In this document: positions 725 to 54,300 of the stretch, piece after piece
How the letters are laid out: every line of letters starts with the position of its first letter
Position numbering within the stretch: position 1 is the stretch's first letter
Source: Sphingobium aromaticiconvertens
Lineage (GTDB): Bacteria > Pseudomonadota > Alphaproteobacteria > Sphingomonadales > Sphingomonadaceae
Assembly (NCBI RefSeq): GCF_037154075.1
Contig: NZ_JBANRJ010000001.1
Location: forward strand, 1,979,501-2,043,500
Direction: 5' to 3'
DNA length: 64,000 bases
Translations under genes and position numbers: made by a program
Notes under the pieces: generated by a model
Seen by the model: the letters and a program-made list of their open reading frames with translations, nothing else
Told to the model about the DNA's origin: nothing
Database searches by the model: none

Positions 725-2308
725 ATGATGCGAGACACCGCCCAGATGGCAACCCCGCAGCAGATGTCGTCCCGTATCGCGGCCGAATCGGCAAAGACCT
801 GGCTTGGCCATCCACGCGGCCTGTTCCTGTTGTTTTTCGCAGAGATGTGGGAGCGTTTTTCCTATTACGGGATGCGCGCGATCCTGATTTTCTACCTCAC
901 CAAACATTTCCTGTTCGCAGAGGATCGCGCCTATCTGCTCTACGGCGCCTATACGTCGCTGGTCTATATCACGCCGGTCATTGGCGGTTATCTGGCCGAC
1001 CGCTTCCTGGGCGCGCGTAAGGCGGTGCTGGCGGGGGGCGTATTCATCGCCATCGGCCATTTCCTGATCGCGGTCACGGAAGGGCCGGGCGGGCAGGACG
1101 GTTTTTTCCTCAATGGCTTCTATTTGGCGCTGGCGTCGATCATCATCGGCACCGGCTTCCTGAAGGCCAATATTTCGGTACTCGTGGGGGAACTCTACCC
1201 GCGCGACGATGCGCGCCGCGATCCGGCCTTCTCGATCTTCTACATGGGGATCAACATGGGAGGGATGCTGGGGCCGATCGTCTGCGGCCTGCTGGGCGAG
1301 ACGGTGGGCTGGTCCTGGGGCTTTGGCGCGGCGGGCGTGGGGATGCTGCTGGGGCTGGTCGTGTTCGTGCTGTGCAAGCCCTGGCTGCTGGGGCAGGGCG
1401 AGCCGCCCGTGCCCGAACAGTTGCGTCGTCCCGTCGCCGCAGGAGTGTCGCAGGAATGGATGATTTATCTGGGCGCGGTGCTGGGGGTGATCGCGGTCTG
1501 GGGCCTCATCCGCTATGCCGAATTGCTGGGCTTTGCGCTATTGGCCTTCTCTGGCATCACGCTGGTCTATATCCTGTTCAGGGCGGTGTTCACGCTGCCG
1601 AAGGTCGATCGCGACCGGATACTGGCAGCGCTGTTCCTGATCGCGCTCAATCCGCTCTTCTGGGGGCTGTTCGAGCAGACAGGATCGTCGCTCAATATCT
1701 TCACGGACCGCAATGTCGATCGGAGCATGTTGGGGGTGGAGGTGCCGGCTTCACTCTTTCAGTCGGTCAATTCGGTCTTCATCATCCTGCTCGCGCCGCT
1801 GTTCGCCGTGCTGTGGACTTTTCTCGACAAGCGGCGGCTGGAGCCATCCTCTCCGGCCAAGTTCGGCGTGGGGCTGATGCTGTGCGGCGCGGGATTTCTG
1901 GTGCTGGTGGGGGGCGCTGCGGCGGCGGGCGAGAATCTGACGCCGGTGATCTTCGTCTTCCTCATCTACCTGCTGCACACGATGGCGGAGCTGTGCTTCT
2001 CCCCCGTCGGGCTGTCGGCGATGACGCGGCTATCGGTCGCCAGCATGGTGGGCCTGATCATGGGCACATGGTTTCTGGCGATGGCGGCGGGCAATTTCAT
2101 CGCGGGCCTGATCGCGCGGGCGACCGGCGGTGGCGAAGGGGCGGGGGTTAGTCAGGTATTGGACATCTACAGCCGGATCGGCTGGTTTGCGGTGGCGATC
2201 GGGGTGGTCGTGCTGCTGGTTTCGCCGTTCATAAAGCGGCTGATGCACCTCGACACGATTGGTTCAGCCGACCATCAGGACAATGATAAAAAGGGGAATA
2301 TCGCATGA
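725..2308 (+). CDS. POT/PTR2 family proton-coupled oligopeptide transporter
   Basis: An inner-membrane major-facilitator protein of about 527 residues with many hydrophobic segments. The FAEMWERFSYYGMRA segment in the first helix is the POT-family ExxER proton-coupling motif, and the conserved GGYLADRFLGARKAV and GTGFLKANISVLVGELY segments follow. Di- and tripeptide uptake driven by protons is the family role. Start is uncertain: ATGs at 725, 728 and 746 are all possible and none has a strong ribosome binding site. The stop overlaps the next start by four bases (ATGA), coupling it to two exported amidohydrolases; the context suggests uptake of products released or modified by those enzymes. 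Confidence 0.9.
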   Translation: MMRDTAQMATPQQMSSRIAAESAKTWLGHPRGLFLLFFAEMWERFSYYGMRAILIFYLTKHFLFAEDRAYLLYGAYTSLVYITPVIGGYLADRFLGARKAVLAGGVFIAIGHFLIAVTEGPGGQDGFFLNGFYLALASIIIGTGFLKANISVLVGELYPRDDARRDPAFSIFYMGINMGGMLGPIVCGLLGETVGWSWGFGAAGVGMLLGLVVFVLCKPWLLGQGEPPVPEQLRRPVAAGVSQEWMIYLGAVLGVIAVWGLIRYAELLGFALLAFSGITLVYILFRAVFTLPKVDRDRILAALFLIALNPLFWGLFEQTGSSLNIFTDRNVDRSMLGVEVPASLFQSVNSVFIILLAPLFAVLWTFLDKRRLEPSSPAKFGVGLMLCGAGFLVLVGGAAAAGENLTPVIFVFLIYLLHTMAELCFSPVGLSAMTRLSVASMVGLIMGTWFLAMAAGNFIAGLIARATGGGEGAGVSQVLDIYSRIGWFAVAIGVVVLLVSPFIKRLMHLDTIGSADHQDNDKKGNIA

Positions 2309-3693
2309 AGGGCCGTTCGATCGCGTTGGCCATTGCGCTGGTGGCCTGTGCCAGCGGCACAATGGCGGCGAAGAAGAATGAGGATGCGCCCAGAAGCAAT
2401 CCGTCGGCGGAACCGGAAAACCCCTATCCTTCGACTTACCAGCCCTATCCCGGTGTCGCGACGGCCATTCGCGGCGCGACCATCTTCGACGGTGAGGGCG
2501 GTCGGATCGACAATGGCATAGTCTTTCTGTCGGGTGGCAAGATCGTGTCGGTGGGAGGGCCGGATACGCCGATCCCCGCTGACATCGCGATATTCGACGG
2601 CACTGGCAAGTTCGTGACGCCCGGCGTCATCGACATTCACAGCCATCTTGGCGACTATCCCTCACCCAGCGTCGCCGCGCTGTCGGACGGGAATGAGGCG
2701 ACCGCACCCGTCACCGCCCATGTATGGGCCGAACATTCGATCTGGCCGCAGGATGCGGGCTTTGGCCGGGCGCTGGCCAATGGCGGGGTGACGTCGCTCC
2801 AGATTTTACCCGGTTCGGCGAACCTGTTTGGCGGGCGCGGCGTGACGTTGAAGAATGTGCCCGCGCGCACGATGCAGGGGATGAAGTTCCCCGGCGCGCC
2901 CTCCAGCCTGAAGATGGCCTGCGGCGAAAACCCCAAGCGCGTCTATGGTGCCAGGAACCGGGAGCCAGCCACTCGCATGGGCAATATGGCGGTCAACCGT
3001 CAAACCTGGATCAAGGCGCGGGAATATCAGAAGAAGCGCGCCGCCGCGCAGCCGCAGACCCGCGATCTGGGGCTTGAGACTCTGGCCGACGTGCTGGAGG
3101 GCAAGATTCTCGTCCACAATCACTGCTATCGCGCGGACGAGATGGCCAATGTGATCGATATGGGCAAGGGGTTCGGCTATAAGGTCACGGCGTTCCATCA
3201 TGCCGTCGAAAGCTACAAAATCGCCGACCTGCTGAAAGAAAACGGCATTTGTTCGGCGATGTGGGGCGACTGGTATGGTTTCAAAATGGAAGCCTATGAC
3301 GGGATCAAGGAAAACCTGCCGCTGGTCCATAATGCGGGCGCTTGCGCGATAGTCCATAGCGATGATGAGAACGGCATTCAGCGGTTGAATCAGGAGGCAG
3401 CCAAAGCGATTGGCGCGGGCCGCCGCATGGGCATCAACATTCTCGACGAGATCGCCTGGACATGGCTGGCGATCAATCCCGCCAGGGCCATGGGTATAGC
3501 CGAACAGACCGGCAGCCTGAAGGTCGGCAAGATGGCTGATGTCGTCCTGTGGAACGGCAATCCCTTCAGCACCTACACCCGGCCCGAAAAAGTGTGGATC
3601 GACGGCGCACTGCTCTACGACGCCAATGATCCCAGGCGGCGGCCCGTCAGCGATTTTGAACTGGGCCAGATCGGCGCGGGAGACGTGAAATGA
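2305..3693 (+). CDS. Exported amidohydrolase, metal site intact
   Basis: 462 residues, beginning with a cleavable-looking signal peptide (MKGRSIALAIALVACASGTMAA). It belongs to the imidazolonepropionase/prolidase-like branch of the amidohydrolase superfamily. Metal ligands are all visible: HxH at residues 112-114 (IDIHSHLGD), a candidate carboxylated lysine near 203, histidines at 271/273 and 298/299 (TAFHHAVESY), and aspartates at 353-354 (IVHSDDENG). The C-terminal SLKVGKMADVVLWNGNPF segment closes the small beta-sandwich domain. Probably periplasmic; relatives cleave peptide or cyclic amide bonds. It starts inside the transporter stop and its own stop overlaps the next gene, so the three are likely made together. 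Substrate unknown. Confidence 0.9.
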   Translation: MKGRSIALAIALVACASGTMAAKKNEDAPRSNPSAEPENPYPSTYQPYPGVATAIRGATIFDGEGGRIDNGIVFLSGGKIVSVGGPDTPIPADIAIFDGTGKFVTPGVIDIHSHLGDYPSPSVAALSDGNEATAPVTAHVWAEHSIWPQDAGFGRALANGGVTSLQILPGSANLFGGRGVTLKNVPARTMQGMKFPGAPSSLKMACGENPKRVYGARNREPATRMGNMAVNRQTWIKAREYQKKRAAAQPQTRDLGLETLADVLEGKILVHNHCYRADEMANVIDMGKGFGYKVTAFHHAVESYKIADLLKENGICSAMWGDWYGFKMEAYDGIKENLPLVHNAGACAIVHSDDENGIQRLNQEAAKAIGAGRRMGINILDEIAWTWLAINPARAMGIAEQTGSLKVGKMADVVLWNGNPFSTYTRPEKVWIDGALLYDANDPRRRPVSDFELGQIGAGDVK

Positions 3694-5081
3694 GGATTGT
3701 TCTCAACGCCCCCATTCTCACCCCCCGTTCGCTTCGAGCGAAGTCGAGAAGCCTATGCACGAAGGTATCTCGACTGCGCTCGACACGAACGGCCCTTGGG
3801 GCTTTGAGCATGATGCTCTGGGTTCCGGCCTTTTCCCAAACCATTGCCATCACCGGCGCCACGTTGGCGATCGGCGACGGATCGGAGCCGGTGCGGAATG
3901 GCACCGTCGTCATCGCCGCTGGCAAGGTGGTCGCAGCGGGTCCGGGCGTTGCCGTGCCAGCCGGTGCCAAGACGATCGACGCGAGCGGAAAATGGGTGAC
4001 GCCGGGCCTTGTCTCCGGCTTCTCGCGCGTTGGGCTGGTCGAGGTGCCCGGCGTCACGGAGACGAACGATTCGTCGGCGTCCAAGTCGCCCTTCTCAGCG
4101 GCGATCGACATTGAACCTGCGATCAATCCGCTCGCCAATCCCGTGGCGATCAGTCGCACGGCGGGTGTGACGCGGGCGGTGGTGGTGCCTGCGGCCTCGG
4201 GCAATATCTTTGCGGGGCAGGGCGCCATCGTTGATCTGGGCGCGGATATGAACCCGATCACAAAGGCGCGCGCCTTCCAGTTTGTCGAGATGGGCGAGGA
4301 TGGCGCGAGCAAGGCGGGGGGGAGCCGCCCGGCCGCCTATCTGCTGTTCAAAGCGATGCTACGCGAGGCGCAGGACTATGCGCGTGCGCCCGCCAGCTAT
4401 GACGGGCGGTCGAAGGATGCGTTGTTGATGCGCGCCGATGCGCAGGCATTGGGTCCGGTCGTGAACGGTCAGATGCCGCTGATGGTTCATGTGGAATCGG
4501 GGCGCGACATCCTGTCCGTGCTGGCGCTGAAAAAGGACTTTCCGGCGCTGCGCCTGATCCTGGCGGGCGCTACCGAGGGCTGGATGGTCGCTGCCCAGAT
4601 CGCCGCCGCCAAGGTGCCTGTGATCGCGGGCGGGCTGGATGACTTGCCGTCGAGCTTCGAGAAACTGGCGGCGACGCAAAGCAATGTCGGGCGGATGGTA
4701 AAGGCGGGCGTGCCCGTGTCGATGGGCCTGATGGATCGGGACGAGGGGCTGCAACTGCGCCTCGCTACCCAACAGGCGGGCAATATGGTGGCGCTGAACA
4801 AAGTGCCGGGCGCGACCGGCCTTAGCTGGGGGCAGGCGCTGCGGACCATCACCTCCGCGCCCGCCGAAGCGATGGGGCTGGGCGACCGGATCGGATCGCT
4901 CAAGGCCGGCAAGGCAGGCGATGTTGTGATATGGGACGGCGATCCGCTGGAAATGGAATCCGCCCCGGTCGCGGTGTGGATCGACGGGGTGCAACAGCCA
5001 CTCGACAACCGGCAGACGAAGCTGCGCGATCGCTATGCGACGCCTGTGCCGGGGGCGCTGCCCAAGGCGTATGAGTGGTAA
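3690..5081 (+). CDS. Exported amidohydrolase-like protein lacking the HxH metal motif
   Basis: 463 residues, same superfamily as the previous gene and coupled to it by an ATGA overlap. The fold is kept (IAITGATLAIGDGSEPVRNG at the start, IGSLKAGKAGDVVIWDGDPL at the end), but the usual HxH after TPG is replaced by TPGLVSGFS (residues 104-112), and the FHHA motif by LAGA (291-294); only one equivalent histidine (H267, MVHVES) remains. It is therefore probably catalytically dead or works without the usual metals, perhaps as the partner of the upstream enzyme. Residues 13-34 are encoded by a 68-bp palindromic repeat that pushes the hydrophobic signal core (TALGALSMMLWVPAFSQ) away from the start, giving a very basic extended n-region. 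An ATG at 3810 would miss most of that core. Confidence 0.85.
   Translation: MRIVLNAPILTPRSLRAKSRSLCTKVSRLRSTRTALGALSMMLWVPAFSQTIAITGATLAIGDGSEPVRNGTVVIAAGKVVAAGPGVAVPAGAKTIDASGKWVTPGLVSGFSRVGLVEVPGVTETNDSSASKSPFSAAIDIEPAINPLANPVAISRTAGVTRAVVVPAASGNIFAGQGAIVDLGADMNPITKARAFQFVEMGEDGASKAGGSRPAAYLLFKAMLREAQDYARAPASYDGRSKDALLMRADAQALGPVVNGQMPLMVHVESGRDILSVLALKKDFPALRLILAGATEGWMVAAQIAAAKVPVIAGGLDDLPSSFEKLAATQSNVGRMVKAGVPVSMGLMDRDEGLQLRLATQQAGNMVALNKVPGATGLSWGQALRTITSAPAEAMGLGDRIGSLKAGKAGDVVIWDGDPLEMESAPVAVWIDGVQQPLDNRQTKLRDRYATPVPGALPKAYEW
3725..3792. repeat. REP-like palindrome inside a coding sequence
   Basis: Two 25-base arms beginning CCGTTCG and ending CGAACGG flank a short loop; arm against arm reverse complement shows about three mismatches. 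It is the same element as that at 54234-54300 (shared core TCGAGCGAAGTCGAGA). Its length and frame let it be read straight through as residues 13-34 of the second amidohydrolase. Confidence 0.85.
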
Positions 5082-5227
5082 GGGGATGGGCCAACTTCGG
5101 CTCCAGGAGAGACCGCTATGCTTGGTCTGGGGCGGGCCGCTTTGAACGCACCTAATGTCTTTTAACTCTGCCGTGTAGGCCAATATTTATCCTCCACCTT
5201 TAGGCGTGAGCCTATGGGGGAATCATA

Positions 5228-5932
5228 ATGACACGCAGATTTACAATTCGCTGGCTTATTGCCCTCGCCGGGCTGTCGATATTTAGTGTGCTATTCCCCT
5301 ATTTACTCCCTCCACTGGTCCGTGCCACTGGATGCGCGCATGTCGGAGGGGCATGTGGTGCAGTGGCCTTGGTTCTCGCTATCTATCTACGTCTACCGGT
5401 CATAATCGGTGTCGGCATTTACCTTGTCATTTTGACTTCGAAACAATCGCGCATTGTTGGTGCCCAACCTTGGGCATCTTTGTTCATCCTCCTGACCTAC
5501 ATAGCAGCATTTCCGTTTCTATTTGCGTTTGGCAATTTTGGGGCTGCGAATTTCGCCCTTGGCATTGTCTACATCAATGGGCCGTTAGCAGTTTTAACTA
5601 TGCTGCTGGCTACTTTGATCGGACTAAGCTGCCTGCCTGAGGAAAGTAAGACGCGGCACAGCGGAGCGCGCCTCGCCACGTTAACCACTGGCGGAATTGC
5701 CCTACTTCTCACCTCCAACTTATGGCTAACAAGTTTAACCCTGATTCCAGTAGTCGGGAGCATATTGCGACTTATTACTGGCCCGATCCACATGATGGCA
5801 GGGTCGATCTTGCGCCTTGGCGGCGCTTATGGGTTGCTGATCGTAATGGCTCTTTTTATTGCATCACTGGCTTGGTGGGTCATTACTGCGCGACGCACGA
5901 GCTATCTAAATGTGTCGATCAGCCCAAGCTGA
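5228..5932 (+). CDS. Orphan multi-pass membrane protein, AT-richer than its neighbours
   Basis: 234 residues that I do not recognise. Six or so hydrophobic stretches are visible (for example LIALAGLSIFSVLFPYLL near the start and GLLIVMALFIASLAWWVI near the end), so it is very likely an inner-membrane protein. The start is supported by a purine-rich GGGGGAAT site a few bases upstream. Base composition and codon choice (frequent TTA, CTA, ATA, AAT, TTT) differ clearly from the GC-rich genes on both sides, suggesting recent acquisition. It stands alone: convergent with the SDR gene downstream, and with about 145 bases of unremarkable sequence before it. Function unknown. Confidence 0.7.
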   Translation: MTRRFTIRWLIALAGLSIFSVLFPYLLPPLVRATGCAHVGGACGAVALVLAIYLRLPVIIGVGIYLVILTSKQSRIVGAQPWASLFILLTYIAAFPFLFAFGNFGAANFALGIVYINGPLAVLTMLLATLIGLSCLPEESKTRHSGARLATLTTGGIALLLTSNLWLTSLTLIPVVGSILRLITGPIHMMAGSILRLGGAYGLLIVMALFIASLAWWVITARRTSYLNVSISPS

Positions 5933-54233: not shown

Positions 54234-54300
54234 CCGTTCGTTCCGAGCGAAGTCGAGAAACGCCGCGCATAGGTTTCTCGACTTCGCTCGAAACGAACGG
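54234..54300. repeat. REP-like palindrome between convergent genes
   Basis: Arms CCGTTCGTTCCGAGCGAAGT and the matching TCGACTTCGCTCGAAACGA region differ by one base; the same element as 3725-3792. Here it occupies its normal place between convergent stops and may act as a transcription end. Confidence 0.85.

Follow-up and report, generated by a model that had tools for sequence, protein, structure and literature searches.

Introduction

REPINs, which go with RAYT transposases, are inverted doublets of short hairpin units. Palindromic repeats that have entered coding sequence are known from Rickettsia, where, in the available portions of two reports, Rickettsia palindromic elements (RPEs) lie in frame in protein genes that can still work (PMC2229807, PMC10969869). 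The available text of Di Nocera 2013 likewise describes intragenic REPs of the GTAG- and CGTC-tagged kinds, in TruB of S. alaskensis and, elsewhere, in UvrA. It records families of the CGTC kind for S. chlorophenolicum and S. wittichii and suspects many REPs at annotated N-termini of being untranslated (PMC3733652). In Yersinia, a mobile repeat of the RU-2 (YPAL) type forms part of the predicted signal peptide of the fusion YPO1552, as set out in the portion available of PMC2229807. A literature search that mostly covered listings recognised no work on a CCGTTCG family in sphingomonads or in signal peptides, and the string 'sphingo' does not occur in the available text of the RepRanger paper (PMC12306157).

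Here we describe such a repeat in a window of 64,000 nucleotides from Sphingobium aromaticiconvertens (the window being the whole stretch of DNA that was analysed), where it lies within the predicted signal peptide of an amidohydrolase. A sequence-only reading of the locus had regarded the conversion of a repeat into protein as uncommon; in view of the intragenic REPs already published from Rickettsia and others, it is less unusual than that.

Results

The element in the window

The second of two overlapping amidohydrolase genes carries the element. The features of the locus, and the second copy of the repeat in the window, are as follows.

2305..3693, + strand: upstream amidohydrolase gene (open reading frame list; Pfam Amidohydro_1/3)
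3678..3682, + strand: Shine-Dalgarno-like GGGAG ahead of the start at 3690 (read from the sequence)
3691-3693, + strand: TGA of the upstream amidohydrolase, in a 4-nt overlap with the start of the next gene (ATGA)
3690..5081, + strand: second amidohydrolase, 463 aa, with the element within its signal peptide (open reading frame list; Pfam PF07969/PF01979)
3690..3836, + strand: 49-codon segment for the signal peptide; comparison with orthologues suggests cleavage ahead of Gln50
3725..3792, + strand: REP-like doublet, two inverted CCGTTCG units with a 13-nt spacer, read as residues 13-34
3725..3752, + strand: left unit, CCGTTCG foot and short stem around GAGCGAAGTCGA (pattern match; stem covariation in the family)
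3766..3792, - strand: right unit, inverted (pattern match 3770-3792)
3793..3836, + strand: hydrophobic core and cleavage region, directly after the terminal Arg-Thr of the element (sequence)
54234..54300, + strand: second doublet of the same family, between open frames (sequence, fold, pattern match)

Each unit has the form CCGTTCG-abcY-GAGC-nn(n)-GTCGA-R-c'b'a', and both window copies are inverted doublets of it. The 68-mer at 3725-3792 folded with -42.8 kcal/mol, a stability equalled by 1 of 3197 68-mers sampled from the window. Within the window, the pattern CCGTTCGNNNNGAGCN{2,3}GTCGA has four matches, one at either end of each doublet, and it was absent from 100 shuffles. An Rfam search returned only matches far below the gathering scores, and none of the five terminator-like sites found in 2200-5300 was located at the element. 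The whole codons within the element, residues 13-34 (RSLRAKSRSLCTKVSRLRSTRT), are free of stops; a 24-codon span at this place holds 8 K/R and 0 D/E, and the hydrophobic stretch ALGALSMMLWVPAFS follows directly on the repeat-encoded residues. Sequence, fold and pattern checks agreed with the position, arms and frame first proposed for the element, and the near-twin at 54234-54300, called intergenic in the sequence-only reading, indeed lies between open frames as read from the open reading frames.

A REP-like family across the genus

In the own genome, an 88-nt query gave 12 matches at 10 places (E 0.01 or better, the query itself included), the best other copy being 94% identical over 69 nt and located about 126 kb from the window element. 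The unit pattern was present in 90 of 94 genus genomes, at 15 sites in the own genome and at up to 265 in another, while a reversed-pattern control gave 0 or 1 match per strand. The number of sites thus runs from 0 (G027, G049, G050, G076) to 265 (G056) across one genus with no visible mobiliser. Single units exist beside inverted dimers. A rough codon-usage gene finder placed 28 of 30 sampled loci outside predicted genes and 2 inside, the latter in UvrA (L085) and TruB (L094) according to Pfam and NCBIfam; its start for the window gene is 3810, behind the element, so signal-peptide copies would escape it. A recheck of the 28 outside loci revealed in three (L087, L101, L107) an open frame that leads from a start across the unit into a long GC3-rich frame, none of them signal-like by eye. 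For plasmids, the best place per record showed no annotated feature in 10 of 10 and 17 of 18 records, with one record unannotated and an incomplete gene table. The family accordingly has the general properties of REPs, namely a palindromic unit in many copies, mainly extragenic and arranged in inverted dimers.

Peptide searches returned twenty hits with long open frames, among which no convincing gene with the element in its read frame was recognised by eye; the majority seemed to be antisense or intergenic, three were placed immediately ahead of recognisable real genes, and one (L283) is the FlgH locus on the opposite strand.

A recurrent site in the orthologues

An orthologue of the second amidohydrolase was found in 48 of the 94 genus genomes, leaving out a 38% paralogue (L083), and the N-termini of all 48 were read. 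In 27 of them the signal-peptide DNA contains a unit with three mismatches at most, a score reached by 0.3% of codon-order shuffles. The best unit in the remaining 21 has at least five mismatches and is within the shuffle range (9.5% of shuffles at five or fewer); L013, L075 and L077, with a best match of five mismatches, may be eroded copies and were counted as element-free. Of the 27, 23 have a recognisable left unit, at an offset of 20, 24, 27 or 35 nt from the start, and the other 4 a recognisable right unit only. Three types were assigned by eye from stem and frame: A (RSLRAKSRS, as in the window), B (PFGSSLSRT) and C (PFALSLSKG). Outside the genus, type A is present in Sphingomonas sp. 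ID1715 (L158). Among 120 homologues listed, a crude regular expression flagged 24; copies that have eroded and entries annotated from a start behind the element escape it.

In the 21 orthologues without a unit, most signals are plain and 20-25 residues long, which upholds the proposal of a repeat turned into signal-peptide sequence and, as with RPEs, places an in-frame insertion beside orthologues that lack it. The sequence-only reading had considered one event. The element itself and its place in the signal peptide stand, but the case is not a lone one: the site is repeatedly filled or swapped, in places by replacement of the entire signal-peptide segment and not by a clean insertion.

In some copies a nested palindrome was also noted by eye in the loop of a unit, always kept in frame: left units of type C hold a hairpin resembling TTCGAACGAG..CTCGTTCGAA, and right units of type B a core resembling that of type A (L144, L146, L150; L014, L023, L032, L041, L137).

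The stems of the family covary: 246 of 266 distinct units, which come from the loci examined and are not independent of each other, pair at all three variable positions, compared to a shuffled mean of 51. Covarying stems imply that every unit is kept as a small palindrome of its own. Together with the position of the window element, 31 nt behind the upstream stop and inside the range of intergenic copies, this could speak for a hairpin retained for a task in DNA or RNA, such as stability of the upstream message or uncoupling of the overlapping genes, with the peptide as a by-product. However, the covariation belongs to the family as a whole and is carried mainly by six common stem types in related units. 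Moreover, several copies at the site have one recognisable unit only (L028, L038, L040, L065, L068, L072), so that the long hairpin is gone and the peptide remains, and the 21 element-free orthologues have no hairpin of this kind to keep. We consider it unlikely that the hairpin is what is being maintained here; a role for it in RNA is possible but not needed, as single and eroded units persist.

Translation probably starts ahead of the element

The in-frame start of the second gene overlaps the upstream TGA by 4 nt in all 102 orthologous loci (93 ATG, 7 GTG, 2 TTG), with the consequence that an element just behind the upstream gene falls inside the second one. All 48 genus orthologues have a Shine-Dalgarno-like motif at -16..-4. 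Starts behind the element, by comparison, leave 17 residues or fewer and no K/R in the 27 element-bearing genus signals, and two of these have no such start at all.

Six public proteins (P0008, P0009, P0013, P0037, P0049, P0050) are annotated from starts behind the element, 11-16 residues ahead of the conserved IAITG motif, which gives signals of about 9-14 residues. Given that the overlapping start and the Shine-Dalgarno-like motif are kept, and that the downstream starts yield short signals devoid of K/R, these public starts are probably wrong. If they were right, the repeat would be a leader-region RNA hairpin that is not translated, a view that gains something from the preference of the gene finder written for this analysis for the start at 3810 and from the untranslated N-terminal REPs argued for P. 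putida, C. koseri and S. maltophilia in the available text of Di Nocera 2013 (PMC3733652). Against it stand the lack of any basic residue in the resulting signals, the two orthologues that offer no such start, the conservation of the overlapping start with its motif, and a bias to acid-poor, stop-free frames for which there is no evident reason if the repeat is not translated. An untranslated repeat is thus quite improbable, and these lines of indirect evidence argue for a repeat that is translated in the signal peptide at a recurrent site.

The frame that is read differs between host genes

The tree set has 28 rows with an element, and frames were compared in 27 of these, L158 among them; L034, which is close to L145, was excluded. 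These 27 are not identical to the 27 genus orthologues above, and their element bounds were set by regular expressions. In the read frame, the 27 elements encode 7 acidic and 136 basic residues and no stop; one of the other two frames has 67 acidic residues with 16 stops, the other 88 with 2. Elements free of both acidic residues and stops numbered 21 in the read frame and 1 and 0 in the others, the remaining 6 holding one or two acidic residues in the read frame.

For FlgH (Pfam PF02107), a second exported gene, 10 of the 30 best loci (L378-L398) carry a unit within the signal peptide, a proportion biased upward because these were the best 30 of 93 genomes for an element-bearing query. As in the second amidohydrolase, its start overlaps the upstream gene by 4 nt, and 8 of the 10 have a left unit whose offset is 30 when counted from a GTG in overlap with the upstream stop; the true start may instead be an ATG three or four codons after this GTG, and that ATG, too, is ahead of the element. 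Over the whole FlgH signal, 10 acidic residues were counted in the read frame, compared to 27 (with stops in every case) and 65 in the others.

The inserts in UvrA (10) and TruB (6) behave in the opposite way. In these 16, which were chosen by eye for the CCGTTCG family and of which L300, L311 and L376 have loose bounds, the read frame holds 68 acidic residues and the others 10 and 51; every insert has at least one acidic residue in the read frame, whereas 6 would have none in the +1 frame. Signal peptides, then, read the acid-poor frame of the repeat and UvrA/TruB loops an acid-rich one, which is the new observation of this work.

The insert sites of UvrA (L298-L327) and TruB (L328-L377) are hypervariable and also contain other repeat-like peptides (PAKAGISG..PASAGVT, GGEDSAACPQGGLAQLGEG, SSPARGGGPP), probably from other palindromic families.

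Orthologue rows are related, so that 27 of 48 does not stand for 27 events, and rows of one type may have inherited their frame. By gene and type, the independent cases number only about five, all of them in the acid-poor frame. Two homologues depart from the charge rule, P0010 reading VRPELVEG and P0052 SEVEG, and the 6 of 27 elements with one or two acidic residues also speak against it.

The mature protein is under purifying selection

In 9 of 9 element-bearing orthologue pairs, dN/dS of the mature part was 0.02-0.13, indicating strong purifying selection. An enlarged n-region that weakens export of a protein heading for loss, for which the lengthening of the signals from 20-36 residues without the element to 32-60 with it might be cited, is very improbable in view of these ratios and of frames open from the start into the mature part in 48 of 48 genus orthologues. 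The suggestion of the sequence-only reading that the gene may now be exported poorly likewise finds no support, as judged from the same ratios and from the 27 of 48 genomes that keep such signals.

Gain, loss and exchange at the site

On a quick-method tree of 74 mature proteins, the four states at the site require at least 15 changes and presence alone 8, with types A, B and C interleaved. Interleaving was rejected as proof of many insertions, as L023 and L133 exchange the whole segment: they bear different types and differ at 2 of 413 residues of the mature part, and their flanks are 96 and 94% identical, compared to 67% in the signal segment. In P0052 and P0060 both flanks are common and the element is not. 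From these two pairs, exchange of the segment and exchange of the element are both seen.

The window copy is 93% identical to a copy elsewhere in its own genome, and 82, 77 and 76% to the same-site type A copies of L140, L022 and L158, respectively; the value against L034 (45%) comes from a stretch that was cut too long. The closest homologues among those listed, P0001 (96%) and P0002 (95%), have as predicted proteins plain signals without the element (MKKSASLMIAAALSGIAMPVLAQ and near-identical), the absence in relatives that an alignment of N-termini had been expected to reveal if the element was inserted. This points to a window element that is probably young or newly exchanged. As both homologues differ from the window protein over the whole signal peptide, segment replacement fits as well as insertion. 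Taken together, the orthologues suggest that the site is a recurrent landing place tolerated by the protein.

Search for a mobiliser

Of the 94 genomes, 1 has a match to the REP transposase model NF047646 that exceeds the cut-off and 10 more have weaker ones, and the loci of the three best such genes (L115, L116, L126) contained no unit. The own genome has a single Y1_Tnp match (G000:C1:4058059-4058412, L084), also with no unit of the element at its locus; the gene there looks IS200-like. A RAYT as mobiliser is not supported by a transposase that is this rare and whose best genes are not flanked by the element, and the search for Y1_Tnp in the own genome and for NF047646 across the 94 genomes identified no enzyme moving it.

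Discussion

With a probability of roughly 0.8, the signal peptide is a functional one that tolerates a mobile REP-like element and filters it by frame. The source would be the short REP-like doublet, widespread in intergenic DNA of the genus, a copy of which would have been placed behind the first amidohydrolase within the distance from gene ends seen in sampled copies. As the second gene starts on the upstream stop, such a copy comes to lie inside its signal peptide, and translation from the overlapping ATG would run through the repeat and produce a long basic n-region, with hydrophobic core and cleavage site intact and the protein presumably still exported. The n-region of Sec signals requires positive charge and little else. 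An acid-poor repeat peptide would therefore be harmless or mildly useful there, and copies would survive mostly in a frame that supplies an acid-poor, positively charged peptide, almost any of which this region may accept. With such tolerance, the site could fill, erode, empty and be swapped between species. Tolerance is the most likely mechanism.

The locus amounts to a natural experiment in the conversion of selfish DNA into protein. The three frames of an element differ in charge, so the frame that survives reports what the site selects; the two exported genes with the overlapping layout are alike, and the two cytosolic genes are opposite. The site also shows the extent to which the n-region of a signal peptide can be stretched and swapped, and translation through the repeat would account for misplaced starts in public entries for the second amidohydrolase. 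This verdict yields a frame rule that can be tested.

A more far-reaching and tentative proposal is that REP doublets serve as an exchangeable n-region for Sec signals, re-recruited at gene overlaps in the basic frame, with cytosolic loops keeping acidic frames and export strength tuned by repeat turnover. If true, one palindrome would have two compartment-specific protein meanings. We think this rather doubtful as a whole.

Compared with the systems described so far, the element resembles RPEs in being a palindromic repeat in frame within a protein gene. RPEs are about 105-150 bp long and reside in an obligate intracellular host, whereas the present element consists of 68-bp CCGTTCG doublets in Sphingobium and its kin and, unlike RPEs, recurs at one signal peptide. 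With the GTAG/CGTC REPs it shares short hairpin units, often in inverted dimers, that are found mostly behind genes and sometimes inside them (TruB, UvrA). The available text of PMC3733652 defines that superfamily by a terminal GTAG or CGTC (TGTC, CCTC) tag, with stems of 8-9 bp and loops of 4-5 for CGTC; the present unit, with a CCGTTCG foot and a stem of about 4 bp around a loop of 11-12 nt, falls outside it. In contrast to the N-terminal cases of Di Nocera, translation and frame choice are supported for the Sphingobium element. The inverted doublets of hairpin units are also those of REPINs, but the transposase model above cut-off in a single genome contrasts with an element in 90 of 94, and the absence of units from the Y1_Tnp locus of the own genome and from the three best transposase loci places the element apart from RAYT-mobilised REPINs. 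YPO1552, finally, is one locus fully conserved in two species, whereas here one site is reused by different elements across a genus. On comparison with the available text of PMC3733652, the signal-peptide site appears as a new form of the intragenic REPs and RPEs already described.
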